DNA of 64,000 nucleotides from Roseburia rectibacter. Lineage in GTDB: Bacteria > Bacillota > Clostridia > Lachnospirales > Lachnospiraceae. Location: assembly GCF_014287515.2 (NCBI RefSeq), contig NZ_CP092473.1, positions 360,501-424,500 of the forward strand, read 5' to 3'. This document shows positions 4,657 to 39,033 of the stretch, piece after piece. The notes beneath the pieces were generated by a model. It searched no databases and had not been told where the DNA came from. It saw nothing but the letters and a program-made list of their open reading frames with translations. Each line of letters opens with the position of its first letter. Position 1 is the first letter of the stretch. The position numbers and the translations under genes were made by a program.

Positions 4657-4668
4657 ATTCTTGATTAG

Positions 4669-5106
4669 TTAAAGTTTTTTAACTTTCCCGATTTTAAAAT
4701 AATACCGGTCAATAATATCCTGCAATGTAATGGATTTCATTTTTTCATCTACCATATTTTGAATTTCATGATAGAAGTCCCCAATAGCGAATTGAATGTT
4801 GATACCGATTCCACAATCCGGATTGGTATCTGTGTCCAGGTGAAGCAGCGGCTTATCGCCCTCTACGGCTCGGTAGATGTCATACATGTTGATTTTATCT
4901 GCCGATTTTGCAAGGGCGGCATTCGCATGACCTTGTGTGTTGACAACAATGCCTGCATTTTTCATGGTTGCCATAAGCTGTCTGACATAAGCCGGGTTTG
5001 TCTTGATACTTTCTGCAATTTTTGTGCTGGAGAGTTGTTCGGCATCTCCAAGCGCAATAAATATAAGAATATGAATGGTGTCACTAAGCTTTGTGGAATA
5101 TTTCAT
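4669..5106 (-). CDS. Rrf2-family transcriptional regulator
   Basis: 145 residues. N-terminal winged helix (about 1-65: KLSDTIHILIFIAL, then STKIAESIKTNPAYVRQLMA) and a C-terminal dimerisation helix. The three cysteines that bind iron-sulfur clusters in IscR or NsrR are missing; only one cysteine (NPDCGIGINIQ, about residue 98) is present, as in thiol-reactive or ligand-sensing relatives. It is divergent from the sirtuin operon that begins 150 bp away and is the obvious candidate regulator of it, possibly in response to redox stress (inference). Confidence 0.88.
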   Translation of the reverse strand: MKYSTKLSDTIHILIFIALGDAEQLSSTKIAESIKTNPAYVRQLMATMKNAGIVVNTQGHANAALAKSADKINMYDIYRAVEGDKPLLHLDTDTNPDCGIGINIQFAIGDFYHEIQNMVDEKMKSITLQDIIDRYYFKIGKVKKL

Positions 5107-5141
5107 TTGTCACCTCGAATTTTTTCTTGCAATTTTTAAAC

Positions 5142-5175
5142 TTACATGATAATATAATTTTAATGCTTGATGTAA
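5142..5175. promoter_or_regulatory. Candidate Rrf2 operator between divergent genes
   Basis: In the AT-rich space between the Rrf2 gene and the sirtuin operon, TTACAT (5142-5147) is inverted as ATGTAA (5170-5175), with TATAAT (5153-5158) between them. The arms are short and the spacing is wide, so this is a weak but positionally sensible operator/promoter candidate. Confidence 0.3.
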
Positions 5176-5259
5176 TTTTAATTTTAACAAGTAAAAAAAT
5201 AAAAGTCAAGCGAAATAAAAAGTGTGGAATCTGATATAAAAAAGGAGATAAAGTGGTGT

Positions 5260-6129
5260 ATGCAAAAGGAGGAACAAGTCAGTTTTCTGGCAGAAAAAAT
5301 CCGTCAGGCAGATGCCGTTTTGATAGGCGGTGGTTCTGGTCTTTCCAGTGCGGCGGGATATAACCATTATCATTGGCTACCCTATATGGAGGAATGTTTA
5401 CAAGATTTCAAGGAGTGGTATGGACTGAAATCTCCCTTTGACGGTTTTTACTACTGTTATTCATCGCCGGAACAACAGTGGGCATATTATGCACGTTACA
5501 TACAAAGTATGTGGGATGCACCTACAGGACAGCCATACTATGACCTGCGTGATATTGTGGCGGAAAAAGAAATCTTTGTTTTAACAACCAATATAGATAT
5601 GCAGTTTGAACGGATTTTTCAGAAAGAAAGGATTTGCGATTATCAAGGTAACATTGGCTATCTTCAATGCAGTCAGCCTTGCCATGACCAAATTTATTCC
5701 AATGTAGAAATGATTCGCAGGATGAACGAAAATATCCGGGGGCTGCGTGTTACTTCCGAGCTTCTGCCAAGATGTAATGAGTGCGGGAGAATCATGGTTC
5801 CCTGGGTAAGGGATGATACATTTTTGGAGGGGAAAGACTGGAGGAAAGGCGTAAGGCGATATGAGAATTTCCTAAAAAAATATCTCATGAATGAAACAGA
5901 TAAGAATGTTGTACTGCTGGAGCTGGGGGTTGGTGAGATGACACCCAGTATTATTAAACTTCCTTTTTGGGAAATGACATACAAAAATGAAAAAGTGTTT
6001 TATGCCTGTCTGAATCAGAAGAAATCCTCAGTTCCAGAGCATATAAGAGACAAAGGCATTTATATAGCAGGAGATTTGGCAGAAACCCTGCGGGATTTAA
6101 AAGAAAACATAGTGGGAAAGGAAATGTGA
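5260..6129 (+). CDS. Class M (macrodomain-linked type) Sir2 protein, copy 1
   Basis: 289 residues, Sir2/Rossmann NAD-binding fold. Visible motifs: GGGSGLSSAAGY at about 23-34 (nucleotide loop), TTNIDMQF at 109-116, and QG at 129-130 where classical sirtuins have the catalytic His-Gly. A four-cysteine zinc module follows (CSQPC near 137-141, RCNECG near 180). The His-to-Gln change and the ICDYQGNIGYLQC context are those of SirTM enzymes, which in staphylococci and streptococci ADP-ribosylate a lipoylated GcvH-like protein. ATG 5260 is preferred over GTG 5224 because AAAGGAG lies 12 bases upstream. First gene of a four-gene operon. Substrate unknown. Confidence 0.8.
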   Translation: MQKEEQVSFLAEKIRQADAVLIGGGSGLSSAAGYNHYHWLPYMEECLQDFKEWYGLKSPFDGFYYCYSSPEQQWAYYARYIQSMWDAPTGQPYYDLRDIVAEKEIFVLTTNIDMQFERIFQKERICDYQGNIGYLQCSQPCHDQIYSNVEMIRRMNENIRGLRVTSELLPRCNECGRIMVPWVRDDTFLEGKDWRKGVRRYENFLKKYLMNETDKNVVLLELGVGEMTPSIIKLPFWEMTYKNEKVFYACLNQKKSSVPEHIRDKGIYIAGDLAETLRDLKENIVGKEM

Positions 6130-6971
6130 TGAAGATGAATGTATATCAAGAGATAAGTCAAATCATCAAAGAAGCAGATGGTATTTTGATTGGAGCCAGT
6201 AATGGTTTGTCTATCGCAGAGGGATATAATATTTTTGCAGATGACGCATGGTTTCAGGAAAATATGGGAGATTTCAGAGAAAAATACGGACTGCGCAGTG
6301 TTTTACACGGATTTTCAGTGCCAATGAAGGTAGAAGAAAAGTGGGCGTTTGTAAGCAGACTTGTTAGGGCAAAAGCTATGCAGGATGAGCCGAGTGAGAT
6401 TATGAAAAACATCTATGCACTAGTAAAGGATAAAGAATATTTCGTAGTAACTTCCAATGCGGAGGATCATTTTGTGCCGGCAGGTTTTGAGGCAGACCGT
6501 GTTTTTGAAATGGAAGGGAAATTAACCCAGATGCGGTGCAAGAACAGATGTCATGACGAGGTCTATCCTAATCAAAAAGCAGTTCTCGCCATGACCGAAG
6601 AGGAAGTAAACGGAAGAGTACCCAAAGAGTTACTGCCGAAATGTCCAAAATGCGGTGGAGATATGGAAGTAAATTGGAGTGAGATGTCCTCGTTTACAGA
6701 AACGAAAAATTGGAAGGAAAAGGCTGCCCGCTATCAAGAATTTATTCAGAAGTTACATGGAAAGAAGCTGGTAATTCTGGAATTTGGCATTGGTTGGAGA
6801 AATCAGATGGTTAAAGCTCCTTTGATGCAGCTTGCAGCAGTAGAACCACAGGCAAGATATATCACATTTAACAAGGGCGAAATTTACATTCCAGAGGAAA
6901 TCAAAGAAAAATCAATCGGTGTGGATGGTAATCTTACGGTAGCGTTAAAGGAAATCAGAAAGGAATTCTAA
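6129..6971 (+). CDS. Class M-like Sir2 protein, copy 2, diverged active site
   Basis: 280 residues, paralogous to the flanking copies. It has GASNGLSIAEGY for the nucleotide loop, TSNAEDHF in place of TTNID, and MEGKLTQMRC in place of HG, so the catalytic position is Glu. The zinc ligands CKNRC and KCPKCG are retained. ATG 6129 overlaps the previous stop by one base, with GAAAGGA upstream, giving translational coupling. Either a different catalytic specificity or a partner subunit; a non-catalytic role is inference. Confidence 0.72.
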   Translation: MKMNVYQEISQIIKEADGILIGASNGLSIAEGYNIFADDAWFQENMGDFREKYGLRSVLHGFSVPMKVEEKWAFVSRLVRAKAMQDEPSEIMKNIYALVKDKEYFVVTSNAEDHFVPAGFEADRVFEMEGKLTQMRCKNRCHDEVYPNQKAVLAMTEEEVNGRVPKELLPKCPKCGGDMEVNWSEMSSFTETKNWKEKAARYQEFIQKLHGKKLVILEFGIGWRNQMVKAPLMQLAAVEPQARYITFNKGEIYIPEEIKEKSIGVDGNLTVALKEIRKEF

Positions 6972-6976
6972 GGAAA

Positions 6977-7372
6977 ATGACAAGAGAAGAAAAAGCAGTA
7001 TATTACAAACATAATGGATTTAATTGCTGTCAGTCGGTTATCAAGGCAATGATCGATTTAGCAGATTCTGATAAGGAAATACTGACGAATGCTGCATCCG
7101 GATTTGCGGTAGGTATGGGAGGTATGGAAGCAACTTGTGGTGCCTTGATTGGAGCAACCATGATGGCGGGAATTGTAAAGCTAGGGAAGAAAAGTGCGAT
7201 GACGGCACGCGAGATATTAAACAAATTTCAGGAATATTCAGGTGCAACCATATGTAAAGACCTAAAGGGAAAGGATACAGGTGTTGTACTCTGTGAATGC
7301 GATGATTGCATTCGCAATGCAATACGGGCTTTTGACGAGGTGTTGCCGATGGAATTAGAAAGTGAAGGATAG
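6977..7372 (+). CDS. C_GCAxxG_C_C family redox protein
   Basis: 131-residue small helical protein with the family cysteine pattern: FNCCQSVIKAM near the N-terminus, then GMGGMEATCGALIGATM (C-G-A-L variant), then ATICKDLKG and CECDDCIRNA. These proteins are common in anaerobes next to oxidoreductases and thiol or metal-handling genes, and are thought to be redox-active or metal-binding. It lies 5 bases behind sirtuin copy 2 and 44 bases before copy 3, so it belongs to the operon. Exact function unknown. Confidence 0.82.
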   Translation: MTREEKAVYYKHNGFNCCQSVIKAMIDLADSDKEILTNAASGFAVGMGGMEATCGALIGATMMAGIVKLGKKSAMTAREILNKFQEYSGATICKDLKGKDTGVVLCECDDCIRNAIRAFDEVLPMELESEG

Positions 7373-7416
7373 ACTAAGTAAGGTAGTTAAAGATATTACA
7401 GTTGTGAGACAGGAGA

Positions 7417-8403
7417 ATGAAAAAAATGAGCTGTTACGAAAATTTGGTAATGAAAACACAAATGAACTATTCAAGACACTATAGTACCTATGCATCCGGC
7501 GGTACTGCTATAGTGTTGAGCAAACAAAAACCACTTCCTTATGAGGAACAGATTCAGGAATTTGTTCGCAGAGTGCAGGAGGCAGAGTGTATCATAGTAG
7601 GCGGAGCATCCGGTTTATCAGCGGCTGGAGGTGGTGACTTTTATTATAGTGATACCCCTTCTTTTCGTGAGCATTTTGGAAAATTTGCAGATAAGTATGG
7701 ATTCAAAGGTGCTTTTAGCGGAATGATGCATCGGTTTTCTACAAGAAATGAACACTGGGGATATGTGGCAACCTTTTTAAATACTACACAAAATGCTCCT
7801 ATCAGAGAGCCATATCTGGATTTGGATAAAATTTTGCAGGGAAAAGATTTTCATATCTTAACGACTAATCAGGATACACAGTTTGTAAAGGTTTATTCGG
7901 AAGAAAAGGTCAGTGAGATTCAGGGAGATCATCGTTTCTTCCAGTGTTCCCAGTGTTGTCAGGATGAAACATGGGATGCCGTACAACCTGTGGCAGACAT
8001 GATTGCGGCTATGGGAGAGGGGACAATGGTGCCGGATGAACTGATTCCTCGCTGCCCTCATTGTGGTGCGGAAATGTTTCCGTGGGTAAGAGGATATGGG
8101 AATTTTCTGCAAGGGAAAAAATACGAAGAAGAATATGAGAAAATCTCAAAATACATTCAAAAGAACAAAGATAGAAAAATTCTCTTTATAGAACTTGGAG
8201 TAGGGCGCATGACACCGATGTTTATACAGGAACCGTTTTGGGAACTGACAAACAGCTTGAAAGGTGCATATTATATCTCCGTAAATTCAGAATATCAGTT
8301 TTTGCCGGAATTCATTGAAGATAAGGGGATTGCTATTTTGGGAGATATAGGAACAGTGTTAAAAGATTTGCTGAAAGCAAAAGAGGAAAGTGCATTTGTA
8401 TAG
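7417..8403 (+). CDS. Class M (macrodomain-linked type) Sir2 protein, copy 3
   Basis: 328 residues; longer than copies 1 and 2 because of a roughly 45-residue N-terminal extension. Motifs: VGGASGLSAAGGGD, TTNQDTQF, IQGDHRFFQC (catalytic Gln), zinc ligands CSQCC and RCPHCG, then LFIELGVGRMTPMFIQEPFW, closely shared with copy 1 (LLELGVGEMTPSIIKLPFW). ATG 7417 follows GGAGA. Last gene before the terminator. Three paralogues in one operon point to an ancient internal duplication and some division of labour, since copy 2 is much more diverged. Confidence 0.8.
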   Translation: MKKMSCYENLVMKTQMNYSRHYSTYASGGTAIVLSKQKPLPYEEQIQEFVRRVQEAECIIVGGASGLSAAGGGDFYYSDTPSFREHFGKFADKYGFKGAFSGMMHRFSTRNEHWGYVATFLNTTQNAPIREPYLDLDKILQGKDFHILTTNQDTQFVKVYSEEKVSEIQGDHRFFQCSQCCQDETWDAVQPVADMIAAMGEGTMVPDELIPRCPHCGAEMFPWVRGYGNFLQGKKYEEEYEKISKYIQKNKDRKILFIELGVGRMTPMFIQEPFWELTNSLKGAYYISVNSEYQFLPEFIEDKGIAILGDIGTVLKDLLKAKEESAFV

Positions 8404-8459
8404 GATACTTGTTCCTGATATTCCACTTGATGGAGAAACATTAGAATATTGATTGATAC

Positions 8460-8494
8460 AAAACTGCACTCAGGGATATTGTGGGTGCAGTTTT
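8460..8494. terminator. Terminator behind the sirtuin operon
   Basis: AAAACTGCAC (8460-8469) pairs with GTGCAGTTTT (8485-8494). Its A and T flanks make it work in both directions, for the sirtuin operon and the convergent AraC fragment. Confidence 0.8.
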
Positions 8495-8503
8495 GCATTA
8501 AAA

Positions 8504-8795
8504 TTATTGATTACGATACAGTTTCTGATATGCAGTAGGTAATATCTGAAATGTATCTCGGAAAGCCGATATAAATTTACTTTGGCTTTTATATCCCACA
8601 GCGGCGACAATTTCCGAAATAGATTTATCTTCATGCAACAGCATTTTTGATGCCAACTTCATACGGTAATCTTTCATGTAAGAAGCGATGGGCATTCCAT
8701 AGACTGCTTTGAAAACGGATTTCAAAGTAGTGGTGTTCATCAGGTACTGTTTTGACAACTCTTCAATAGTATAGTGGCGTTTTCCAGCATCACCT
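8504..8795 (-). pseudogene. AraC-family regulator, C-terminal fragment
   Basis: The frame encodes only the tail of an AraC/XylS regulator: one and a half helix-turn-helix motifs, with TIEELSKQYLMNTTTLKSVF, MKDYRMKLASKMLLHEDKSI and IVAAVGYKSQSKFISAFRDT. Homology-like sequence starts upstream of the first ATG (GDAGKRHYTIEEL) and meets a stop near 8800, so the N-terminal domain is deleted. No start or sensing domain remains. Confidence 0.65.
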
Positions 8796-19165: not shown

Positions 19166-21100
19166 ATGAAATTATTAGAGCCTATAAAAGTTGGAAATAT
19201 TGAGTTTAAAAACCGTATTATGTTCCCACCACTTACAACAGGATATGAGGAAAAAGATGGTTCTATTGGAGAACAAAGTTTTCGTTTTTACGAGCGTCTC
19301 GCAAAAGGCGGTGTCGGATATATAGTAATTGGAGATGTTGCACCACTTCCAACATTCTCTCCTACACCAAAGCTTTATTCACCTGAGCAGGTTCAAAGCT
19401 TCAAAAAACTTGCTGACGCATGTCATGAAAATGGTGCAAAGCTTGGAATTCAGTTATTCCATCCTGACTACAATGTTAAAGCTTTAAACGATATGTTCCA
19501 TCAGGGCAAAATGCAGGAAGCAAGAGCTAAACTTCACCATGATATGCAGCACTTTGTAAATGAAGTAACTGCAGAAGAACTTGATGAAATAATAAAGCAT
19601 ATGGAAAACTGTGCTATCTTAGCACACGAAGTTGGTGTTGATTGTATTGAAGTACATGGAGACCGTCTTGTTGGTTCTCTCTGCTCTCCTATTTTAAATC
19701 ATAGAACTGATGAATATGGCGGTGACCTGGCTAATCGTACACGTTTTGCATTAACACTTGTAAAAAGATTAAAAACAATCGTACCTGACATGGTTATCGA
19801 CTACAAGCTTCCTATAGTTACTCCTCTTGGAGAAAATAGTTTTAGAGGAAAAGGTGGTCTTCCATTAGATGAGGCTTGCATTTTTGCAAAAGAATTAGAA
19901 GCTTGCGGTGTTGACACATTACATGTTGCACAGGCTAACCATACAGGAAATATGGGTGATACAATCCCTGCCATGGGAACACAGCCATACGGATTTATGG
20001 TTTCTTATTCTAAAAAAATAAAAGAGCTTGTATCTATTCCTGTATCTGTAGTAGGCCGTATCGTTACACCAGAAGCTGCCGAAGCAGTTATTGCAAATGG
20101 TTCTGCTGATATCATTGGATTAGGTCGTTCTCTTCTCACAGACCCTGACTTTGCAAACAAATGCGCAGATGGACATTGCTGTAATGTCAGAACATGTATG
20201 ATGTGCAATAAGGGATGTACAGATAATATTCAGAATCGTGCTTTCTTAAGTTGTGTACTTAATGCTGAAAACGGTTACGAAGCAACACGACATATAACTC
20301 CTGCAGCATCATCAAAGAAAATAGCTATTATTGGTGCTGGTATTGCTGGACTTGAAGCTGCACGTGTTGCTGCATTAAGAGGTCATAGTGTAACCATTTT
20401 TGAGAAATCACTTCAGATTGGTGGTCAGTTACTTATTGCTAGTGTACCTCCAAGAAAAGAAGAAATGATGAGAAGCATTAATTATTATACAAATGTACTT
20501 CCTGAATTAGATGTTACTTTCAGACTTGGTCAGGAATTCACATCACAGGATTATAATTCATTCGATGAAGTAATTGTGGCAACAGGTGCAAACAACGCAA
20601 TAATCCCTGTTCCTGGCAAAGATCTTCCAACTGTTACAAGTGCATGGGATGTGCTTGCCAAGAAAGAAATCGTATTCGGTAATGTTTCTGTAATCGGTGG
20701 TGGTCTTGTAGGTGTTGAGACAGCTGAATATCTGGCTTCACGTGGATGTAAGGTTACAATTATTGAAATGATGGACCAGATTGCAAAAGAAGAAAGCAAC
20801 ACTGTTCTACCTACTCTAATGAGTGAATTAGAGCATTATAATGTTCAAATAGTAACATCTGCAAAATTATCAGAAATCAAAGATGATTCTGTAGTTGTTG
20901 AAAAAACAATAGACGACAATACATCAACAGAAGAAATTGCTTCAGACTTTGTTGTAATGGCTGTTGGTGCAAGAAAGAACCTTCCAGAGCTTTCTGATTG
21001 TCCTCTTCCACTTCACTATATTGGTGATTGTGCTGGAGAACGTCCAAGTAATATTGATCATGCTATTAAATCAGCATATGATGTGGCATGTGAAATATAA
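19166..21100 (+). CDS. Old-yellow-enzyme family enoate reductase (FMN, 4Fe-4S, FAD)
   Basis: 644 residues with the three-domain layout of 2,4-dienoyl-CoA reductase, BaiCD/BaiH and enoate reductases. An FMN barrel (about 1-335) has MFPPLTTGYEEKDG, IEVHGDRLVGSLCSPILNHR then TDEYGG, and DIIGLGRSLLTDPDF. Cysteines CNVRTCMMCNKGC (about 338-350) bind the 4Fe-4S cluster. An FAD/NAD(P)H module (about 375-644) has IAIIGAGIAGLEAA and VSVIGGGLVGVETAEYLA. It reduces an activated C=C bond; with the neighbouring esterase a hydroxycinnamate is the likely acceptor (inference), bile-acid or other enoates being alternatives. Confidence 0.88.
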   Translation: MKLLEPIKVGNIEFKNRIMFPPLTTGYEEKDGSIGEQSFRFYERLAKGGVGYIVIGDVAPLPTFSPTPKLYSPEQVQSFKKLADACHENGAKLGIQLFHPDYNVKALNDMFHQGKMQEARAKLHHDMQHFVNEVTAEELDEIIKHMENCAILAHEVGVDCIEVHGDRLVGSLCSPILNHRTDEYGGDLANRTRFALTLVKRLKTIVPDMVIDYKLPIVTPLGENSFRGKGGLPLDEACIFAKELEACGVDTLHVAQANHTGNMGDTIPAMGTQPYGFMVSYSKKIKELVSIPVSVVGRIVTPEAAEAVIANGSADIIGLGRSLLTDPDFANKCADGHCCNVRTCMMCNKGCTDNIQNRAFLSCVLNAENGYEATRHITPAASSKKIAIIGAGIAGLEAARVAALRGHSVTIFEKSLQIGGQLLIASVPPRKEEMMRSINYYTNVLPELDVTFRLGQEFTSQDYNSFDEVIVATGANNAIIPVPGKDLPTVTSAWDVLAKKEIVFGNVSVIGGGLVGVETAEYLASRGCKVTIIEMMDQIAKEESNTVLPTLMSELEHYNVQIVTSAKLSEIKDDSVVVEKTIDDNTSTEEIASDFVVMAVGARKNLPELSDCPLPLHYIGDCAGERPSNIDHAIKSAYDVACEI

Positions 21101-22453: not shown

Positions 22454-22885
22454 ATGAATGGAGGATTTCTTGTTACCAAAATAAAACAACTTGGAGATCG
22501 AATCTTTGAGAAGATTCTCAGCGAAAAGAATATTGATGCGTTTAACGGAGCCCAAGGGCGTATTCTTTATGTACTGTGGCAGGAGGATGGAATCTCAATC
22601 AGGTCACTCTCGATTAAGTGTGGATTAGCGATAACTTCTCTTACTACGATGCTGGAAAGAATGGAAAATCAAGGGCTGATAAGACGTGTTCAGTCTGAAA
22701 CGGACAAAAGGAAAACACTCCTGTTTCTGACTGAAAAAGCACATGCCTTAAAGGACGAATACGATTCTGTATCTGATAAAATGGGCAGTATTTACTACAA
22801 AGGTTTTTCGGAGGAAGAAATTACCCAGTTTGAGGAATGCCTCGACCGTATCAGAAAGAATCTTGAGGAGTGGCAGAAATCATGA
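22454..22885 (+). CDS. MarR-family regulator of the radical SAM mobile pair
   Basis: 143 residues with a winged helix: YVLWQEDGISIRSLSIKCGL, AITSLTTMLERMENQGLIRR and the wing VQSETDKRKTLLFLTEKA. The C-terminal helices support dimerisation. The TGA overlaps the ATG of the first radical SAM gene (ATGA, 22882-22885), so all three genes are translationally coupled. NCBI families include a MarR regulator defined by exactly this context. Inducer unknown; some MarR proteins respond to phenolics or oxidants. Confidence 0.9.
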   Translation: MNGGFLVTKIKQLGDRIFEKILSEKNIDAFNGAQGRILYVLWQEDGISIRSLSIKCGLAITSLTTMLERMENQGLIRRVQSETDKRKTLLFLTEKAHALKDEYDSVSDKMGSIYYKGFSEEEITQFEECLDRIRKNLEEWQKS

Positions 22886-23571
22886 GTATTTGTATCAAAG
22901 ATCAGATTCAAAACATGAATATCGTCATCGGATGTACAGTGGGGTGTGCATATTGCTATGCCCGCAATAATGTGAAACGCTGGCATATGATTGATGACTT
23001 TGCTGACCCTGAATTCTTTCCGGGTAAACTCAAGATGATGGAAAAGAAACGTCCGCAGAACTTTCTTCTTACCGGCATGAGCGATCTTTCCGGCTGGAAG
23101 TCAGAATGGAGAGACGAGGTATTTGAAAAAATCCGTGAAAATCCACAGCATCAGTTCCTGTTCCTTACAAAGCGACCAGATCTGCTGGATTTTGATACAG
23201 ATTTGGAAAACGCATGGTTTGGTGTTACGGTGACGAGAAAAGCAGAACTGTGGCGTATTGACGCACTACGGGAAAATGTCAGAGCAAAACACTATCATGT
23301 TACCTTTGAGCCGCTATTCGACAATCCAGGTTCAGTTGATCTTTCCGGGATCAACTGGATCGTTGTCGGCACCATGACTGGAGTTCAGAGCAGGAAGGTT
23401 CATACGGAGCCGGAGTGGGCATGGTCTCTGACAGATCAGGCGCATGTGCTTGACATTCCGGTATTTATGAAGGAAGATCTTGTCCCTATCATAGGGAATG
23501 AAAATATGATTCAGGAAATGCCAGATGAATTCAATAAAGTGTTGGAGGTACAGAAATCATGGCAGAAGTAA
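22882..23571 (+). CDS. Radical SAM mobile pair protein A (DUF5131-like)
   Basis: 229 residues. The cluster-binding motif is CTVGCAYCYARNN (about 16-28, CX3CX2C). Downstream are TGMSDLSGWKSEWRDEVFEK, FLFLTKRPDLLDF, WFGVTVTRKAE and WIVVGTMTGVQSRKVHTEPE, a layout like phage Gp37/Gp68 (DUF5131) proteins. The chemistry requires S-adenosylmethionine and a 4Fe-4S cluster; the substrate is not known. It overlaps protein B by 13 bases. Protein A and B almost always occur together, hence the name. Confidence 0.88.
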   Translation: MSICIKDQIQNMNIVIGCTVGCAYCYARNNVKRWHMIDDFADPEFFPGKLKMMEKKRPQNFLLTGMSDLSGWKSEWRDEVFEKIRENPQHQFLFLTKRPDLLDFDTDLENAWFGVTVTRKAELWRIDALRENVRAKHYHVTFEPLFDNPGSVDLSGINWIVVGTMTGVQSRKVHTEPEWAWSLTDQAHVLDIPVFMKEDLVPIIGNENMIQEMPDEFNKVLEVQKSWQK

Positions 23572-24467
23572 TAAATGGAATCCTCATTAATGAGGCGGAA
23601 ACAAAGAACATCATGACCAAGTCCAGTCTGCCTGTAGGCGGTTACTCGGTCAATCCATATGTAGGCTGTACACACGCCTGCAAGTATTGCTATGCTTCTT
23701 TTATGAAGCGCTTTACCGGACACAAGGAGGAATGGGGCACTTTCCTTGATGTGAAGCATTGGCCGGAAATTAAGAATCCGAAGAAATATGCCGGACAGCG
23801 GGTGGTCATCGGTTCTGTGACAGATGGCTACAATCCACAGGAGGAGCAATTCGGGAATACCAGAAAACTTCTGGAGCAGCTGATCGGCAGTGACGCAGAT
23901 ATTCTGATCTGCACAAAGTCGGATCTTGTGGTACGAGATATTGATCTGCTGAAGAAGCTTGGACGAGTAACCGTTTCATGGTCGATCAACACACTAGATG
24001 AAAATTTCAAGAACGATATGGACTCTGCTTCTAGCATTGAGCGCCGTATCGCTGCTATGAAGCAGGTATATGAAGCAGATATCCGTACAGTCTGTTTCGT
24101 ATCCCCGGTATTCCCCGGTATCACGGATTTTGAAGCAATCTTTGAGCGGGTAAAGGATCAGTGCGATCTGTTCTGGCTCGAAAATCTCAATCTTCGAGGC
24201 GGTTTCAAAAAGACAATTATGGATTATATCGCCGGAAAATATCCTGATCTTGTACCACTTTACGACGAGATCTATAACAAGCATAACCGCAGCTACTTTG
24301 AAGCACTTGAAGTAAAAGTTGAGGAAATGGCTAAGAAGTATGATTGTCCCTTTGTGGATAATGAAATGCCTTATGGCAGAGTCCCGCAGGGACATCCGGT
24401 GATCGTAGATTATTTCTATCATGAGGAAATCCGAGGGACAGAGAATACAGGAATAAGAAATCGTTAA
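23559..24467 (+). CDS. Radical SAM mobile pair protein B (SplB-like fold)
   Basis: 302 residues. CTHACKYCYASFMKRFTGHK (about 37-56) supplies the CX3CX2C cluster ligands, followed by VIGSVTDGYNPQEEQFGNTR, ICTKSDLVVRDIDLL, VSWSINTLDENF and FVSPVFPGITDFEAI. These are typical of the spore-photoproduct-lyase/Rv2578c-like radical SAM branch. The tail (VPQGHPVIVDYFYHEE) is variable. Third gene of the MarR operon; the reaction and substrate are unknown. Confidence 0.88.
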   Translation: MAEVINGILINEAETKNIMTKSSLPVGGYSVNPYVGCTHACKYCYASFMKRFTGHKEEWGTFLDVKHWPEIKNPKKYAGQRVVIGSVTDGYNPQEEQFGNTRKLLEQLIGSDADILICTKSDLVVRDIDLLKKLGRVTVSWSINTLDENFKNDMDSASSIERRIAAMKQVYEADIRTVCFVSPVFPGITDFEAIFERVKDQCDLFWLENLNLRGGFKKTIMDYIAGKYPDLVPLYDEIYNKHNRSYFEALEVKVEEMAKKYDCPFVDNEMPYGRVPQGHPVIVDYFYHEEIRGTENTGIRNR

Positions 24468-24614: not shown

Positions 24615-25096
24615 GTTTGCGCGCCATGGGCGCGCTCTAATGGGTGAAAGTCCCGAACACGCCTAGGCAACGAGGAAGTGTATAGCAGAACAGCAAGGGT
24701 GTCCATCGTGAGGTGGAATCTGAAGGAAGCTGTAAGCAAACTCTTGGTCCGACGGACAGAAATCACATATAAGGCTCGGAAATACGGATAAGTCTGCCAA
24801 AAGAGATGAAGTCCTAAAGTTGCTGGAAGTACGAGTAAATGTGGCGGATAGATGAGAGGAAAGAGCGTGCACCTTAAGCGTGGAGGTCTCACAGGGGTTT
24901 CATTAGCCTAGTAACAACGAACTGTGAGAAGTCAGCCGAGCCCATAGTAGTGAAGAAGTCTCTGTAATAGAGATGGAGCAAAGGGGCGAACAATCAATAA
25001 GTTTGAGTATGTCTCGTATTGCAGAAGAGATAACATCTGCCGTAACCAATCGGGTAAAAGATGGTCAAATCAAGCGAGACGGAAAGGAAAGAACGC

Positions 25097-26380
25097 ATGG
25101 ACACAAGTAGTCTAATGGAGCAGATATTATCTAGCGATAACCTCAACAGAGCATATCTGCAGGTCGTACGAAACAAAGGTGCAGAGGGAGTGGACGGAAT
25201 GAAGTGCACAGAACTTAAGGAACATCTTGCAAAGAACGGCGAAATCATTAAGGAGCAGCTGAGGACAAGAAAGTATAAACCTCAGCCAGTACGGAGAGTG
25301 GAGATACCAAAACCCGATGGCGGTTTCAGAAACCTGGGAGTGCCAACAGTAACAGACAGATTTATACAACAAGCTATTGCACAGGTCTTAACACCAATCT
25401 ATGAGGAGCAGTTCCATGATCATAGTTATGGATTCAGACCGAACAGATGTGCACAACAGGCAATCCTGACAGCACTTGATATGATGAACGAGGGCAACGA
25501 CTGGATTGTAGACATTGACTTGGAAAAGTTCTTTGACACAGTAAACCATGACAAGCTTATGACCATCATAGGCAGAACTATAAAAGATGGAGATGTTATC
25601 TCTATCATTAGGAAATATCTTGTCAGTGGAATCATGATTGATGATGAGTATGAGGATTCTATTGTGGGAACACCACAAGGAGGAAATCTTTCACCATTAC
25701 TGGCAAATATCATGCTGAATGAACTTGATAAGGAAATGGAAAAGAGAGGGCTTAACTTTGTACGATACGCGGATGACTGTATTATTATGGTCGGAAGCGA
25801 AATGTCTGCCAATCGTGTAATGAGAAACATATCTCGTTTTATTGAAGAGAAACTAGGACTCAAAGTTAACATGACCAAGAGCAAAGTAGATAGACCAAGA
25901 GGATTGAAATATCTGGGTTTCGGATTCTACTTTGATTCAAGAGCACACCAATTTAAGGCAAAACCACATGCAAAATCAGTAGCAAAGTTCAAGAGGCGAA
26001 TGAAAGAACTCACTTGTCGTAGCTGGGGCGTTAGTAACAGCTATAAGGTTGAGAAACTTAATCAGCTTATCAGAGGGTGGATTAACTACTTTAAAATAGG
26101 TAGTATGAAGGTGTTATGTGCCACGCTCGACCAAAGCATAAGATTTCGATTGCGCATGTGTATATGGAAACATTGGAAAACTCCACAGAATCGCGCGAAG
26201 AACTTAATAAAGCTAGGGGTATATAAGAAACTAGCGTACTCAACGGCTTATAATGGTGCGAGAATCGCACACTGCTGTCAAGGCGGTGCCATGAATGTAG
26301 CCGTTACAAAAGAAAGACTAACCCGTTTTGGATTAATCTCAATGTTAGATTACTACACCGAAAGGTGTGTTACTTGTTAA
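25097..26380 (+). CDS. ltrA: Group II intron reverse transcriptase/maturase
   Basis: 427 residues. Reverse transcriptase blocks include RKYKPQPVRRVEIPKPDGGF, YGFRPNRCAQQAI, VDIDLEKFFDTVNHDKL, GTPQGGNLSPLLANIMLNEL and FVRYADDCIIM (catalytic YADD). The maturase X domain follows (LNQLIRGWINYF, then KTPQNRAKNLIKLGV). There is no C-terminal HNH endonuclease, which fits endonuclease-free introns. ATG 25097 has GGAAAGGA upstream; ATG 25061 is in frame but lacks a site. All catalytic residues look intact, so the intron may be active. Confidence 0.93.
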   Translation: MDTSSLMEQILSSDNLNRAYLQVVRNKGAEGVDGMKCTELKEHLAKNGEIIKEQLRTRKYKPQPVRRVEIPKPDGGFRNLGVPTVTDRFIQQAIAQVLTPIYEEQFHDHSYGFRPNRCAQQAILTALDMMNEGNDWIVDIDLEKFFDTVNHDKLMTIIGRTIKDGDVISIIRKYLVSGIMIDDEYEDSIVGTPQGGNLSPLLANIMLNELDKEMEKRGLNFVRYADDCIIMVGSEMSANRVMRNISRFIEEKLGLKVNMTKSKVDRPRGLKYLGFGFYFDSRAHQFKAKPHAKSVAKFKRRMKELTCRSWGVSNSYKVEKLNQLIRGWINYFKIGSMKVLCATLDQSIRFRLRMCIWKHWKTPQNRAKNLIKLGVYKKLAYSTAYNGARIAHCCQGGAMNVAVTKERLTRFGLISMLDYYTERCVTC

Positions 26381-33251: not shown

Positions 33252-34217
33252 TTAATAGTTTCTTTTCTCAAGGTACGATTCTAAATAACACCTAAGTCCA
33301 ACATATGCGCCCTGCAAAAGTACAAAAAGCAATAGAAGATTTACTGACAGTGCTTTTTTGATTGCTTCTCCAAAATAAATGATGACAGCAGCACTTGTCA
33401 GTATCATCAGTAGAGTAATGACATCCCAACACTTTTCCCTATATAATTCTATAACCTTTATTTCTATCAGTATCGCCAGTATCCCTGTTCCTGCCACACA
33501 TATTCCTACAATCAATATTAGCAATATCCAATATACCATTCCGGCTATAAAAGGATTTGGAATTTTTGTGCTAATCTGTGCCACAGATTGCCCGACCTCA
33601 ATCGTCCAACCGATAAAAGTTTGTATGAATGACGCTGCATCATGGAAGAATGATTTGCAATCGGAAAGAAACACATCTGACTGTACTGCCTGAAAAAGAG
33701 TGGTTGTCAGCGAATACCATGCAAGAAGGAACAAGGTTGTTTGGAACATTACCGTTTTTGCTTTATACTGTCCTGCAAGTCGCTCTTTTTGTGTTTCGTA
33801 TTTCGCTTTTTCATTCTGATAGGCTGTCCGGTCACAGGCTTCACATTTTTCATAGGGTACCGGCTTTTCTACCGGTATCTCTACGATTTTCTGATGTGTC
33901 CGGGCATAATCCCGTTGTTGTGTTAAGCATCGTATTTTATCTTGACATTCCCCTATCGTGACGTTTGCGCTTCGCAGCTTCTCTTTCTCGTTCCGCAATG
34001 CTCTGTCTGCTAGCTTCAAGTCGTTCTTTAATGCTTGAATATTCCCGGCTCTGTTCTCTTTGTTTAATTTCTCGTTCAAGGTCAGAGATTCGTTGAGCTG
34101 CGTCTTTAGTTCCACGATAAGCTGGTCTTTCTGTTCCAGTTCTTCTTGTATCTCCTCGGTCAAGAGGAGAAGTTCTTCCAACTGTTCGGCGTTCTTTGAT
34201 TCTCTGGATTCGTTCAT
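33252..34217 (-). CDS. DUF6040-like coiled-coil membrane protein of the mobilization region
   Basis: 321 residues. A long N-terminal coiled coil (about 5-105, Glu/Lys/Leu-rich), a cysteine pair KCEACDRTAYQNEKAKYETQ (about 122-141), then four hydrophobic helices (about 160-180, 210-235, 245-262, 282-305). The ATG follows AAAGGA. Its first 281 bases overlap the 3' end of the relaxase gene in another frame. The family travels with MobA/MobL relaxases in Firmicute elements; possibly a membrane anchor for the transfer complex (inference). Confidence 0.72.
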   Translation of the reverse strand: MNESRESKNAEQLEELLLLTEEIQEELEQKDQLIVELKTQLNESLTLNEKLNKENRAGNIQALKNDLKLADRALRNEKEKLRSANVTIGECQDKIRCLTQQRDYARTHQKIVEIPVEKPVPYEKCEACDRTAYQNEKAKYETQKERLAGQYKAKTVMFQTTLFLLAWYSLTTTLFQAVQSDVFLSDCKSFFHDAASFIQTFIGWTIEVGQSVAQISTKIPNPFIAGMVYWILLILIVGICVAGTGILAILIEIKVIELYREKCWDVITLLMILTSAAVIIYFGEAIKKALSVNLLLLFVLLQGAYVGLRCYLESYLEKRNY

Positions 34218-35658
34218 CTATATCACGTCCTTTCTCTATCTGCTGTTCCAGTTCAGCAATTCGGTGTTCTGTTTCAGTAATAAACTGTTTTCGCTGTTCA
34301 GCTTCTGTACCAATTTCTGCCATTGCTGATTTTCGTTTTCCAAAAGTTCTATCTTCGTTTTCTGTTCTTCCATCTTGGAAAGCAGTTCCTCGGTATTTGG
34401 CAAAATGTTGAGCAGCTCGGATAACTCGCTGTTTAATTTTTGCAATTTCTGATTCTGTTCCTGCATAAGAGAGAGTTGGGTGTCCCGATTCTGCATTTCC
34501 AGAATCATTTCTGCCATTAAGGTCTGCTGTTCTTCGATTTGCCCAATCATGGATTCCATTAAGGGTATAATTTCCCGGCTTTCTTCTAATGTCATTTAAT
34601 CGCTCCTTCCATAATGATAATGCACCCGATACTTTTCCAAAGGTGTCCAGTATCTTTTGCAATAACGTGTTTTGTTGTTTTATGATTTGATTTTCCGCTA
34701 CTTTCCACGAACCTTTTATTTCCTGCCCGGCAAGAAACTTTTGTTCAATCTTTCTTGCGTCAGCGCCTTCATGGATGGTAGGAATCTGGAGTTTTCCCTG
34801 TTTTTCATAAGAACGGTGATCAACCTGATTATGCAAAGGAAGATGTTCATTACACACCTTTGCCCACTCACTCCGCCACAGCTCACAATTTTTGGGATTG
34901 TTCCATCCAGTAGCATCGGTCAGCACCCGTTTCCATTGCAGGCGGTTTCTTGCACCAATCTTCTGGATTCCGTTTTCGTCTAATACAGGGATACGGATTC
35001 CATGACGGTCAGGGTTTTTCTTATCCTGCCACCAGTCCGGGTGGGATTCGTCAATCACGATATTTCCGCTTTTATCTCTGACAAAATCCCAATCCTTGAC
35101 TTCTTTCTTTCCCCAAGAATGGTCCGGGTTAAAAGGTCGCATCGTCAGAAGCAGGTGGACATGGGGGTTGCCATCCCCTTTGTCGTGGATACTCCAATCA
35201 GCACACATTCCCTTATCCACAAATGTTTTTTGGATATAGTCGGATGTATATTGAATCTGTTCCTGTCTGCTCCATTCTTTTGGGAGGGCAAATTCAAATG
35301 ACCTGCCAAGTTGGGCATCCGCACTTTTTTCAATCTTCAATACCTCATTCCATAATCTTTGTTTCTGAAATGTGATTTTGAATTTTTCTAAAGCAGCTTC
35401 TTTATCTTCTGACCTTTTGTAGCGGACAGATTTTTGAAAGCGTTTTATATTTTCTTCTGGTACTATCTGCCATTCAGGAGGTGCGTTTTCACACATCATC
35501 AGACTGGTGTAGACCACTTCTTTTTTAGAAGTGTAATAACTGATTCTCCCGGTTTCCTCGTTTTTCATCACATCCCCATTGAGATATGCGGAAGCGGAGA
35601 TAACAGATTTCCCTTTACTTCGTCCGACTATTTTGATTGTGTAATGAAAAATCGCCAT
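33937..35658 (-). CDS. MobA/MobL-family relaxase (MobQ)
   Basis: 573 residues. Start AIFHYTIKIVGRSKGKSVIS, then ASAYLNGDVMKNEETGR, with catalytic Tyr candidates near the N-terminus. The metal-binding HUH motif is DKGDGNPHVHLLLTMRPF (about 150-165). The C-terminal third is highly charged (EREREAAKRKRHDRGMSR at the end). It nicks oriT and pilots single-stranded DNA into a conjugation channel. ATG 35658 is preceded by AAGGAGG. The last 640 bases overlap two other genes in a different frame, yet stay open. Confidence 0.9.
   Translation of the reverse strand: MAIFHYTIKIVGRSKGKSVISASAYLNGDVMKNEETGRISYYTSKKEVVYTSLMMCENAPPEWQIVPEENIKRFQKSVRYKRSEDKEAALEKFKITFQKQRLWNEVLKIEKSADAQLGRSFEFALPKEWSRQEQIQYTSDYIQKTFVDKGMCADWSIHDKGDGNPHVHLLLTMRPFNPDHSWGKKEVKDWDFVRDKSGNIVIDESHPDWWQDKKNPDRHGIRIPVLDENGIQKIGARNRLQWKRVLTDATGWNNPKNCELWRSEWAKVCNEHLPLHNQVDHRSYEKQGKLQIPTIHEGADARKIEQKFLAGQEIKGSWKVAENQIIKQQNTLLQKILDTFGKVSGALSLWKERLNDIRRKPGNYTLNGIHDWANRRTADLNGRNDSGNAESGHPTLSYAGTESEIAKIKQRVIRAAQHFAKYRGTAFQDGRTENEDRTFGKRKSAMAEIGTEAEQRKQFITETEHRIAELEQQIEKGRDIDERIQRIKERRTVGRTSPLDRGDTRRTGTERPAYRGTKDAAQRISDLEREIKQREQSREYSSIKERLEASRQSIAEREREAAKRKRHDRGMSR
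34236..34595 (-). CDS. Small coiled-coil protein nested in the relaxase gene
   Basis: 119 residues, entirely coiled coil with Leu/Gln/Asn heptads (MQEQNQKLQKLNSELSELLN, KIELLENENQQWQKLVQKLN). GGAAGGAG lies 7 bases before the ATG. The gene lies completely inside the relaxase reading frame, in the same frame as the DUF6040 gene 18 bases downstream. Either both frames are used or the relaxase ends earlier in related elements. Confidence 0.6.
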   Translation of the reverse strand: MTLEESREIIPLMESMIGQIEEQQTLMAEMILEMQNRDTQLSLMQEQNQKLQKLNSELSELLNILPNTEELLSKMEEQKTKIELLENENQQWQKLVQKLNSENSLLLKQNTELLNWNSR

Positions 35659-35883
35659 ATCTGGATTCCTCCTTTCTGCACATCCGGTATAGATTTCCGG
35701 CAACATTGCTTTCGATTTTAGAAAAAGCAGCATTGCCAGAACGCCCTCTGCGTAAGAGTGCCCTGCGCATAGCAGCCTGCATGGAATGCGCCTCTCTGGC
35801 GAAGAGTGCCTCCTGTGGCATGAGCAGGTCTGGCTGAAAGCCCCGCCGACGGAACGAGCCCGGCAAGCGTGAGCGCAGACCGG

Positions 35884-35939
35884 TTGCCACTTGTGGCAAA
35901 CTTATTGGGACGACCTCTGGTTGTCCATAAGTGCGCCCT
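35884..35939. other. oriT: Origin of transfer, IncQ-like
   Basis: TAAGTGCGCCCT (35928-35939) equals the conserved nick region of IncQ/MobQ origins (TAARTGCGCCCT as I recall it). Immediately before it GGACGACC (35908-35915) and GGTTGTCC (35919-35926) form the expected hairpin with one wobble pair. A second palindrome, TTGCCACTTGTGGCAA, is at 35884-35899. It lies in the 327-bp space 35659-35985 between relaxase and DUF3847 gene, which holds no convincing gene. Confidence 0.8.
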
Positions 35940-35985
35940 TCATGAAAAAGCAATGAAGGGAATGAAAAACTCATCCCATCCGCCA

Positions 35986-36300
35986 TTACACTTCCTCCAT
36001 ATCGGTATTTGTTTCTTTCTGCATTGCCTTTGAGAAAAATTTCCCATTGGCTTCCTGCTTTTTCAGAAAACCAATCAGCTTTGGGATGTCTTCCTCCTCA
36101 ATAGTCGCACCAAGAACGGATTCCACCGCACCGCCAACCTGACAGAGCCTATGGGTTCGTTTTTTACTTTCTTCGGCTTTCTTTCGTTTTAGAAGTTCTT
36201 TCTTCTGTGCTGCATATCGTTTTGCTTTTTCAAGGCTTTCCTGTTCCTTCTTTTCCATTTCAAGCATTCGTTCTTCATAACTTTTTGTTGATTTTGCCAT
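35986..36300 (-). CDS. DUF3847 family mobilization accessory protein
   Basis: 104 residues, lysine/glutamate-rich N-terminal helix (about 1-50, YEERMLEMEKKEQESLEKAK) and a small globular end (VGGAVESVLGATIEEEDIPK). DUF3847 proteins sit next to oriT and relaxase genes in Firmicute elements and probably help process oriT, like MobC-type proteins (inference). GGAGAA precedes the ATG. Confidence 0.8.
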   Translation of the reverse strand: MAKSTKSYEERMLEMEKKEQESLEKAKRYAAQKKELLKRKKAEESKKRTHRLCQVGGAVESVLGATIEEEDIPKLIGFLKKQEANGKFFSKAMQKETNTDMEEV

Positions 36301-36415
36301 TCTTACATTCTCCTTTCCTTCACAAACATAAGTTCTCGGTTGCGTATCAGAAGAAGCACATGGTATAATCTTCTTGCGTGTAGGTATATCATGGCTTCGG
36401 TCTGATAGAACCTTT

Positions 36416-36442
36416 GGCGGTTTCTTCGGAAGCCGCCTTTTT
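36416..36442 (+). terminator. Hairpin between excisionase and DUF3847 genes
   Basis: GGCGGTTTC (36416-36424) and GGAAGCCGCC (36428-36437) pair around a short loop and are followed by TTTTT on the plus strand. It touches the end of the minus-strand excisionase gene. Its T run suits plus-strand transcription, so its direction of use is unclear. Confidence 0.55.
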
Positions 36443-36671
36443 AATTTGCCGCAGTTCTTGTTACGGCTTTTACATTTCCTCTATCCCTCAAATCACGACC
36501 TTCATTAGCTTCCATAAACATTTCCAGAATATCGGTTTTAATCAGGACTTTGCGACCAACCTTTAATACTGGAAGTTTCTTCCATTCTACAAGCTGTCTT
36601 AAGGTATTTCTGCCGATTCCCGTATAGTCAGCAGCTTCTTCGATGGATAATGCAATTTTTCTTTGCGTCAT
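36441..36671 (-). CDS. xis: Excisionase (Tn916 Xis-like)
   Basis: 76 residues with a MerR/AlpA-type winged helix: LSIEEAADYTGIGRNTLRQL then VEWKKLPVLKVGRKVLIKTD. This is the usual small directionality factor next to Tn916-type integrases. AAGGAGG precedes the ATG. Its promoter (TTGACA-17-TATACT on the minus strand, 36745-36717) is strong, and an operator-like palindrome lies between promoter and start, so the XRE protein probably represses it. Confidence 0.88.
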   Translation of the reverse strand: MTQRKIALSIEEAADYTGIGRNTLRQLVEWKKLPVLKVGRKVLIKTDILEMFMEANEGRDLRDRGNVKAVTRTAAN

Positions 36672-36690
36672 ATAATCACCTCCTTATAAA

Positions 36691-36812
36691 TTGCATTATG
36701 CAATTCTTGTGATGTAAGTATATCCTTTTCATATCTTTTTGTCAAGCGTTACGAAATATCAAAAACAAACTTTATGTTGCATATTGCAATTTTGGAAAAA
36801 CAATGCTATAAT
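36691..36812. promoter_or_regulatory. Divergent xis/regulator promoters with paired operators
   Basis: Minus strand: TTGACA (36745-36740), 17 bases, TATACT (36722-36717). Plus strand: TTGCAA (36784-36789), 17 bases, TATAAT (36807-36812). Near-identical palindromes TTGCATTATGCAA (36691-36703, just downstream of the xis -10) and TTGCATATTGCAA (36777-36789, over the plus-strand -35) sit at each promoter. This is a classic lysogeny-type switch layout for the XRE regulator. Confidence 0.75.
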
Positions 36813-36842
36813 TCATACATACCGAAAAAGGAGGCAGTCAGC

Positions 36843-37472
36843 ATGAAAGATAAAGAACTACGCAAGCTGATAGGCAGCAGAGTAAAACAGCGCCGTCTGG
36901 AATTGAATCTGACACAGCCTTATGTCGCAGAAAAGATGGGGGTTACCGCTTCTACAATCCTGCGTTATGAGAATGGTTCGATTGACAATACGAAAAAAAT
37001 GGTGCTGGAAGGTCTTTCGGAAGCACTCCATGTATCTGTGGAATGGCTCAAAGGGGAAACAGATGAATATGAAACCGACATTACGGATAAGAGAGAGTTA
37101 CAGATTCGTGATGCGATGGGAGATATTCTGGAACAGTTACCGCTTGCCCTTACCAAAGAAGAAGATGCTTTTTCAAAAGATTTATTACTGCTGATGTTAA
37201 AACAATATGGTCTGTTTTTGGATTCCTTCCAGTTCGCCTGCAAAAATTTCAAGGGGAATGCTGGTCAGACGGATATTGCCAAAACAATAGGGTTTGAATC
37301 GAATGAGGAATATAATGAGATTATGTTCTTAAGGGAAATCACTCCTACCATCAATGCTCTTAATGAGATGGCAGACGTTGTAAGGCTCTATTCCAAGAAA
37401 CCAAAAACAGCAGAACAAAGGCTTGCAAATCTTTTATCAGAAGTCTTATACGAAGATTCCGAATCGGTATAG
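36843..37472 (+). CDS. XRE-family regulator of the element
   Basis: 209 residues. Helix-turn-helix at about 8-65 (IGSRVKQRRLELNLTQPYVA, ASTILRYENGSIDNTKKMVL) and a C-terminal helical domain of about 130 residues, possibly for oligomerisation or signal reception. ATG 36843 follows AGGAGG. Divergent from xis; proposed to bind the two TTGCA-N3-TGCAA sites and control excision and its own synthesis. Confidence 0.88.
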   Translation: MKDKELRKLIGSRVKQRRLELNLTQPYVAEKMGVTASTILRYENGSIDNTKKMVLEGLSEALHVSVEWLKGETDEYETDITDKRELQIRDAMGDILEQLPLALTKEEDAFSKDLLLLMLKQYGLFLDSFQFACKNFKGNAGQTDIAKTIGFESNEEYNEIMFLREITPTINALNEMADVVRLYSKKPKTAEQRLANLLSEVLYEDSESV

Positions 37473-37558
37473 TAAGACAACCGGAGTTATGATATACTTA
37501 CACGCACGAAGCATTTCATCAGTTCCGATTGTCTAATATCGAAAGGAGATATACGATT

Positions 37559-38854: not shown

Positions 38855-38858
38855 AAAA

Positions 38859-38908
38859 TTTCCCTTATTTCCCTTGTGATTATCTCATAAGGGCAAAAAT
38901 AAGGGAAA
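38859..38908 (+). other. Candidate right attachment-site region
   Basis: TTTCCCTTA (38859-38867), TTTCCCTTGTG (38868-38878) and TAAGGGAAA (38900-38908) directly behind int, matching the arrangement at 27881-27957. The true crossover core cannot be fixed without an empty site. Confidence 0.5.
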
Positions 38909-39033
38909 CTACATATCATTTCACTAATGGACAGGCGGGAAAGCCTATAAAATGGGGAAAGTTAGAGAGATAATTATATAAATTCCAGTTTAAGAAGTTT
39001 ATGGGGACTGTCTCCAAGACACGTCAAATTGAA

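Follow-up and report, generated by a model that had tools for sequence, protein, structure and literature searches.

The closest described relatives of the genes reported here are the class M sirtuins (SirTM), which are named for their link to a macrodomain. In SpySirTM, activity drops strongly when Asn118, Gln137 or Arg192 is mutated, and a His at position 137 abolishes it (Rack et al., 2015, PMC4518038). The same paper describes a GVGx[NT]TP loop in class M sirtuins and names Lachnospiraceae and Spirochaetaceae among the carriers. GcvH-L is given as the sole SirTM target known in 2024 by Ariza et al. (2024, PMC11490716), where a minimal two-gene SirTM/Zn-macrodomain operon is also described. 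A further precedent is FAM118A/FAM118B, sirtuin paralogues that are reported to process nicotinamide adenine dinucleotide (NAD) efficiently only together (PMC12700824). The operon studied here lies, together with a divergent Rrf2-family regulator, at positions 4669-8403 of a 64,000-nucleotide stretch of the genome of the gut bacterium Roseburia rectibacter (contig NZ_CP092473.1), referred to below as the window. It encodes three SirTM relatives, S1, S2 and S3, which fall into a QG type (Gln at the position of SpySirTM Gln137) and an EG type (Glu at this position). With a probability of roughly one half, the operon is an intact two-component, macrodomain-independent SirTM-type QG/EG system that consumes NAD+, ADP-ribosylates and is redox-regulated by the Rrf2 protein.

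S1 (5260-6129, plus strand) is a 289 amino acid (aa) QG-type sirtuin with an alternative GTG start upstream at 5224. S2 (6129-6971, plus strand) is a 280 aa EG-type sirtuin with an alternative GTG start at 6126, and S3 (7417-8403, plus strand) is a second QG-type sirtuin of 328 aa. The S1 stop and S2 start overlap as TGATG, which makes translational coupling of the two genes likely. For each of the three sequences the best solved chain is SpySirTM 5a3a and the second is the fungal macrodomain-SirTM fusion Mfs1 (8rsn). The Pfam SIR2 model misses S1 and scores S2 and S3 just under cut-off; the 5a3a matches (E-value = 1.3e-40 for S1, 1.4e-37 for S2 and 2e-42 for S3) exclude chance similarity. S1 and S3 share 37% identity, S1 and S2 32%, and S2 and S3 28%. 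The AlphaFold2 model of S2 (pLDDT 88) has 5a3a as its nearest PDB fold (TM 0.88); the predicted model supports the fold alone. S3 displays an N-terminal extension of about 40 residues (7417-7540), and a similar outline is seen in a Desulfovibrio homologue at locus L060.

At the Gln137 position S1 and S3 have Q and S2 has E (Glu129). In the alignment S1 and S3 keep all three of Asn118, Gln137 and Arg192, while S2 keeps the Asn, carries Glu for Gln137, has lost Arg192 and shows the loop GIGWRN. The four-Cys zinc module is present in S1, S2 and S3. Between S2 and S3 is a gene for a 131 aa C_GCAxxG_C_C family protein (6977-7372, plus strand; PF09719, E-value = 4.4e-22), apparently an accessory component, and the divergent Rrf2 gene (4669-5106, minus strand; PF02082, E-value = 1.1e-28) encodes a single cysteine, Cys98. 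An earlier sequence-only reading of this DNA had listed three Sir2 paralogues starting at 5260, 6129 and 7417, Gln or Glu in place of the catalytic His, four-cysteine zinc modules, the C_GCAxxG_C_C gene and the divergent one-cysteine regulator, and each of these is borne out by the open reading frames and matches above.

S1 and S3 are like the class M SirTMs of Rack et al. (PMC4518038) in their fold, the Asn/Gln/Arg set and the four-Cys module. They differ from the enzymes described there by the lack of macrodomain linkage in the window, a GVGx[ML]TP loop, placement in a separate clade and an EG sister, S2, which has no QG motif. The S1 loop is GVGEMTP and the S3 loop GVGRMTP, with Met at the N/T position of the published class M loop. 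This distinction extends through the fetched loci, which give 31 macrodomain-linked QG rows, 101 pair-type QG rows (QG genes found with an EG gene) and 86 EG rows, with a few loci fetched twice (L081/L003, L082/L006, L125/L040 and L127/L042). All 31 macrodomain-linked rows have N or T at the variable loop position, and all 101 pair-type rows show GVGx[ML]TP or GIGSMTP. Position 137 is Q in 100 of the 101 pair-type rows and Arg192 is R in 98 of them. EG rows have E at position 137 (86/86, which defines the type) and a G[VI]GxRN loop, where RN is found in 80 rows and a different residue precedes the N in 6; Arg192 is found in 0/86, and N118 and N258 are retained in every row.

Asn110, His114, Glu129, Asn225, Lys229 and Asn248 (S2 numbering) are invariant across 85 EG rows, the window S2 included. 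The predicted EG pocket is one in which the catalytic Asn and the adenine-ribose Asn are kept and the catalytic side is rebuilt, and its strict conservation argues that EG proteins act on NAD+ or ADP-ribose in some way. The zinc module is absent in 17 of the 86 EG rows, and the NAD-pocket residues are still kept there. Fifteen of the 17 come from records named Bacteroidota and 2 from metagenome-assembled genomes (MAGs) labelled Lachnospiraceae and Staphylococcus (L076 and L078). These two EG genes are Bacteroidota-like and probably mis-binned. Among Lactobacillus loci, the EG sirtuins at L070 (7896-9299) and L071 (7911-9305) carry an extra C-terminal domain, which in L070 gives a weak Cupin_5 match under cut-off (E-value = 0.0013). 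The QG partner at L071 has lost the zinc cysteines.

The main tree contains 81 dereplicated rows, with one very long outgroup row removed and two solved chains added; SIR2 defence proteins are absent from the trees. EG sirtuins (27 rows) are monophyletic with support 100/100 and include S2. A QG_pair clade (22 rows, 96/99) includes S1 and S3, and S3 groups with the sirtuins of L048 and L057 (100/100). SpySirTM and the Staphylococcus extended-operon SirTM fall together (100/100) within a branch of 15 macrodomain-linked and 4 other rows (95/91). Canonical CobB-type HG sirtuins share the NAD-binding Rossmann fold but keep the catalytic His and form a far outgroup, outside the SirTM superclade (100/100). 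An earlier, quick tree (80 rows) gives EG 96, QG_pair 99 and macrodomain-linked plus other 97, with a different branch order. By these trees S1-S3 belong to the SirTM superclade, outside its macrodomain-linked branch; to that extent the placement outside class M that would have spoken against the sequence-only reading is not seen. That reading had proposed a triplicated class M arrangement. The SirTM kinship of all three stands; the triplication is not supported, as S1/S3 and S2 represent, on this phylogeny, two deeply separate sirtuin types and not three copies of one enzyme.

A genome scan with the EG alignment took the best 80 of 141 relatives, and 79 of these show an EG open reading frame (ORF) of at least 180 aa. 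QG adjacency played no part in the search pattern. In 64 of the 79 loci the EG ORF is joined, within 400 bp and on the same strand, by a QG ORF of 180 aa or more, which is upstream in 61 of the 64; another 10 loci have one at 446-997 bp (74/79 at less than 1 kb in all). Three further EG genes are beside a QG fragment (L034, L064 and L070). Only L025 and L066 have neither partner nor fragment, and L066 is near a contig end. Two QG genes accompany the EG gene in 20 of the 79 loci. Distance matrices of EG proteins and their partners correlate (Mantel r = 0.49, with 0/2000 permutations as high, for 29 non-redundant pairs). The pair branch is present in Bacillota, Bacteroidota, Spirochaetota and Desulfovibrio. 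Judged by gene neighbourhood, it is the QG+EG pair that is conserved as a unit, and a pair-type QG gene appears nearly always to have an EG sister beside it in place of the usual macrodomain partner. The QG+EG pair resembles the minimal SirTM/Zn-macrodomain pair, as described in PMC11490716, in that a QG sirtuin without a known target is encoded in a small operon of two genes, and differs in that the second gene is an EG sirtuin and not a Zn-macrodomain.

No Zn-macrodomain gene is found within 5 kb of the EG gene in any of the 79 loci, and none of 40 fetched loci with a macrodomain ORF shows an EG ORF within their short flanks. The window itself gives no match to a profile built from the fetched Zn-macrodomains. 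Among 47 EG-carrying genomes, which are part of the 80 loci and include some incomplete drafts, 17 have no Pfam Macro match and 30 have at least one; a genome without an EG match (G001) has one too. The proposal that the system does not depend on a linked macrodomain is upheld by these counts, and macrodomain genes are not always present elsewhere in the genomes of relatives.

The extended SirTM operon comprises GcvH-L, LplA2, an Old Yellow Enzyme (OYE) type protein and LLM in addition to the sirtuin. No GcvH or LplA is found among the window operon genes, or in the rest of the window as checked by eye in ORF lists, not by profile. Neither GcvH-L nor LplA2 is among the families listed, 25 out of 36, for 93 pair-operon neighbour proteins. 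GCV_H matches are over cut-off in 26 of the 48 genomes in the set used for the Macro search, about 20 of them strong and mainly from Bacillus-type and Bacteroidota genomes; the simplest reading of the strong matches is the ordinary H protein of glycine cleavage. One Staphylococcus nepalensis genome holds both systems, a pair at L061 and an extended operon at L143. The latter has a GCV_H match, a macrodomain, a SirTM and ORFs which by eye resemble LplA2, LLM and OYE.

The window operon and its regulator form part of a transferred island (4657-8783) whose sequence recurs at 97-99% identity, along up to about 4 kb, in eight other Lachnospiraceae genomes (L001-L008). The names on these genomes are Blautia luti, Butyribacter intestini, Hominisplanchenecus faecis, Blautia sp. 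Marseille-P3087, Anaerobutyricum hallii, Coprococcus catus, Eubacterium ramulus and one Lachnospiraceae MAG. Where the contigs reach far enough, the left boundary falls at 4657-4690, close to where the Rrf2 gene ends; the right boundary shifts between 8398 and 8783. Fetched flanks of the copies are unlike the window, except that the upstream flank of L004 corresponds to window 33936-38991. L003 and L008 share right-flank DNA and do not represent two independent sites. The island is evidently a recent acquisition by horizontal transfer.

Variation among the island copies is found in the S1 and C_GCAxxG_C_C genes. Internal deletions, differing from copy to copy, interrupt S1 in L002, L003, L005 and L006; L001, L004 and L007 have the gene intact, and in L008 the contig stops within it. 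L002, L004, L005 and L007 have lost the C_GCAxxG_C_C gene at an identical junction with an 11-base overlap, and among the fetched loci this gene is found only in the island copies L001, L003, L006 and L008 and in refetches of two of these. S2 and S3 each reach a coverage of at least 99% in every one of the eight copies. This natural variation suggests that the retained core is S2 plus one QG enzyme. The C_GCAxxG_C_C protein is rejected as a core component, being deleted in 4 of 8 copies and absent from all fetched loci outside the island, and its suggested role as target or redox partner is weakened accordingly. Pooled ratios of nonsynonymous to synonymous substitution relative to the window, which are not independent values, are 0.20 for Rrf2, 0.33 for S1, 0.30 for S2, 0.37 for C_GCAxxG_C_C and 0.22 for S3, with no stops. 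Single ratios range from 0.15 to 0.55 for full-length copies and from 0.09 to 1.03 (one S1 fragment) for partial copies. The ratios show purifying selection on the five island genes.

Eight database proteins (P0012, P0002-P0004, P0121 and P0123-P0125, of which five were read) fuse pieces of S1, S2 or S3 with each other or with other proteins; these are either natural deletions or assembly artefacts. No mobility gene is seen inside the island, and the island gives no megablast match in plasmid and phage collections. A search with the S1 alignment finds no relatives in viral contigs. Ten proteins from the flanks of L001, L002, L004, L005 and L006 include GGDEF/EAL, FUSC, TrkH, MatE, histidine kinase, Na/Pi symporter and Abi_2 types; a tyrosine integrase is among them in L004 only, and one protein has no match. 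The window block at 33936-38991 contains a tyrosine integrase and is about 97% identical to DNA just upstream of the L004 island copy; its distance from the island within the window is 25 kb. At the right island end there is a remnant consisting of the C-terminal fragment of an AraC-type helix-turn-helix protein (8504-8758, minus strand; PF12833, E-value = 6.3e-21). Longer AraC-like genes of one cluster are found near EG loci in relatives, one of them confirmed by Pfam.

The search of relatives for the operon's neighbourhood showed that the pair recurs, accompanied in a minority of them by HD and NAD-salvage genes instead of the C_GCAxxG_C_C gene that the sequence-only reading, made without sight of relatives, had included in the unit. 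A Pfam census of the 93 neighbour proteins, chosen from 169, gives NAPRTase_N 14 times, isochorismatase 12, Fic 10, NAD synthase 7 and HD 5. By direct ORF comparison, 28 of 79 loci have an HD protein gene no more than 300 bp away from the EG gene. Within 3 kb of the EG gene, PncB (nicotinate phosphoribosyltransferase) is found in 15 of 79 loci, NadE in 5 (all beside PncB) and isochorismatase-family ORFs in 17, so that 21 of 79 loci have at least one of the three. Macrodomain-linked QG controls, which have shorter flanks, show 0/31 for HD and for each salvage gene. Gene orders vary. L030 displays QG-QG-EG-HD-PncB-isochorismatase, Cellulosilyticum L015 has a fused HD-isochorismatase followed by PncB-NadE, and the Bacteroidota order is HD-isochorismatase-PncB-Fic. 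The PncB proteins of L030 and L068 match different NCBIfam models, which together with the differing gene orders points to a repeated recruitment of salvage genes. Isochorismatase-family proteins match the nicotinamidase NCBIfam model under cut-off. Five HD-like proteins match a general HD domain or nothing (best E-value = 4.6e-7, most under the Pfam cut-off), and the one HD protein tried has no NCBIfam model; no useful solved relative was found. Fic genes are close to the pair in 10 Bacteroidota loci (L062, L063, L064, L065, L067, L068, L069, L073, L074 and L080). One Fic neighbour from this group was checked and is SoFic-like, matching the PADLOC SoFic model and some candidate models.

The Cys98 column of the regulator is C in 44 of 45 Rrf2 rows near sirtuins, the window included, and the exception is cut by a contig end; three of the 45 rows are from macrodomain-branch loci. 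NCBIfam matches of the window protein include HypR and CymR, all under cut-off. IscR carries a three-Cys Fe-S site; such a site cannot be formed by the window Rrf2 protein, which is predicted to contain one Cys, and we infer thiol sensing. In the proposed mechanism, thiol or redox stress would relieve the divergent one-cysteine Rrf2 protein. The QG subunit (S1, S3) would then cleave NAD+ and pass ADP-ribose to some acceptor, as the retention of Asn118, Gln137 and Arg192 of SpySirTM suggests. The EG subunit (S2) would bind NAD+ or ADP-ribose in its altered, conserved pocket and cooperate with its QG partner, either by activating or gating it or by supplying a second enzyme activity. Released nicotinamide would be recycled, and in some relatives the operon itself holds the genes for this (PncA-like, PncB, NadE).

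Several observations weigh against this QG/EG system as proposed. S1 is deleted internally in 4 of 7 informative island copies, thus two QG genes are not needed. Relatives contributed 37 QG loci (L086-L110 and 12 others), and in 10 of these the fetched flanks show neither a macrodomain nor an EG gene, and therefore a lone QG enzyme can exist; four of the 10 are close to a contig end, and the three placed in the quick tree fall in the macrodomain branch. A strict rule by which each QG gene adjoins a macrodomain or EG gene is rejected on the same count. The order among the three SirTM branches is weak (52/7, 77/27) and differs between the two trees. Two genes of one operon may be co-regulated although their products form no complex. 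Salvage genes are near only 15-21 of the 79 EG loci, with none in the window operon, and some isochorismatase-family ORFs are upstream on the opposite strand and need not be nicotinamidases. At 1.5 kb the salvage genes are found in 19 of 79 pair loci vs 0/31 controls (Fisher p = 0.0014; p = 2e-5 for HD), values which are optimistic and serve as guides only, since the loci are not phylogenetically independent and control flanks are short, many of them about 1.5 kb.

Other explanations differ mainly in what S2 does. It may be a catalytically dead regulatory pseudo-sirtuin, which senses NAD+ or ADP-ribose and gates the QG partner. The loss of Gln137 and Arg192, both needed in SpySirTM, the missing zinc module in the Bacteroidota-like EG rows and the partnership of FAM118A with FAM118B all agree with this. 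The analogy with FAM118A/B, as described in PMC12700824, is that two sirtuin paralogues work as partners; the vertebrate proteins are SIR2_2/ThsA-like, have a catalytic His and belong to another family. Invariance of the Glu, His and catalytic Asn is, on the other hand, stricter than a pure binding subunit seems to need, and the pseudo-sirtuin is a serious possibility, if a minority one. Read in the opposite direction, the invariant Glu with His114 and Asn110 could represent a new catalytic sirtuin type, which would form with QG a macrodomain-free obligate composite enzyme or writer/eraser circuit, the two sister sirtuins between them adding and removing ADP-ribose or running NAD+ signalling; this is offered tentatively. 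If S2 is more narrowly an eraser or NAD(ADP-ribose) hydrolase replacing the macrodomain, QG would write and EG would remove. The invariant Glu and His in the pocket region, the complementary neighbourhoods of EG and macrodomain genes and the EG genomes with no macrodomain match are in line with such a role. That complementarity would fit any partner, though, some QG genes have no adjoining eraser and we know of no sirtuin eraser; this role is unlikely.

The pair could also regulate NAD homeostasis by modifying or sensing neighbouring salvage enzymes, as PncB, NadE and PncA-like genes share operons with it in some Bacillota and Bacteroidota; the window and most EG loci have no adjacent salvage gene, and this explanation is doubtful. 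An NAD-depleting defence or stress-abortive module would agree with the sirtuin fold, which binds NAD, with the recent horizontal spread of a small island and with the repeated S1 deletions. Against it, S1, S2 and S3 match none of the PADLOC anti-phage SIR2 families and the C_GCAxxG_C_C protein and one HD protein also give no PADLOC match, divergent Rrf2-type regulators are present at many loci, the phage and plasmid collections give no match, and adjoining salvage genes would oppose depletion; a defence role is very unlikely. Hardly probable at all is an ordinary SirTM system served by a macrodomain and GcvH-L from elsewhere in the genome. Most of the 47 EG genomes do have a macrodomain somewhere, and S. 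nepalensis carries an extended SirTM operon as well as the pair, but the remaining EG genomes give no macrodomain match, the two QG kinds are on separate branches and the coexistence of both operons in one genome argues for different jobs.

Under the two-component QG/EG reading, the macrodomain would be replaced in this branch by a modified sister sirtuin whose conserved pocket has neither His nor Gln, and some of the pair-operon neighbours point to NAD+ recycling. The pair is a small testable system, both for SirTM-type targets outside the lipoylation operon and for an activity of the Glu-type sirtuin's own. Among the titles and abstract openings listed from open literature, none describes EG sirtuins, a SirTM branch free of macrodomains or an operon that joins a sirtuin to NAD salvage; members or neighbourhoods may have been published already.

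Other genes of the window are labelled here by eye. An Old-Yellow-Enzyme-type flavin oxidoreductase gene is found at 19166-21100 in a separate operon; the extended SirTM operon includes an OYE gene too, and the presence of one in the window is probably a coincidence. A group II intron-type reverse transcriptase gene is at 25061-26380. Two adjoining radical-SAM-like/DUF5131-like genes are at 22870-24467, and relatives of one or both are present in the fetched stretches of eight EG loci (L020, L021, L027, L044, L048, L065, L069 and L080).

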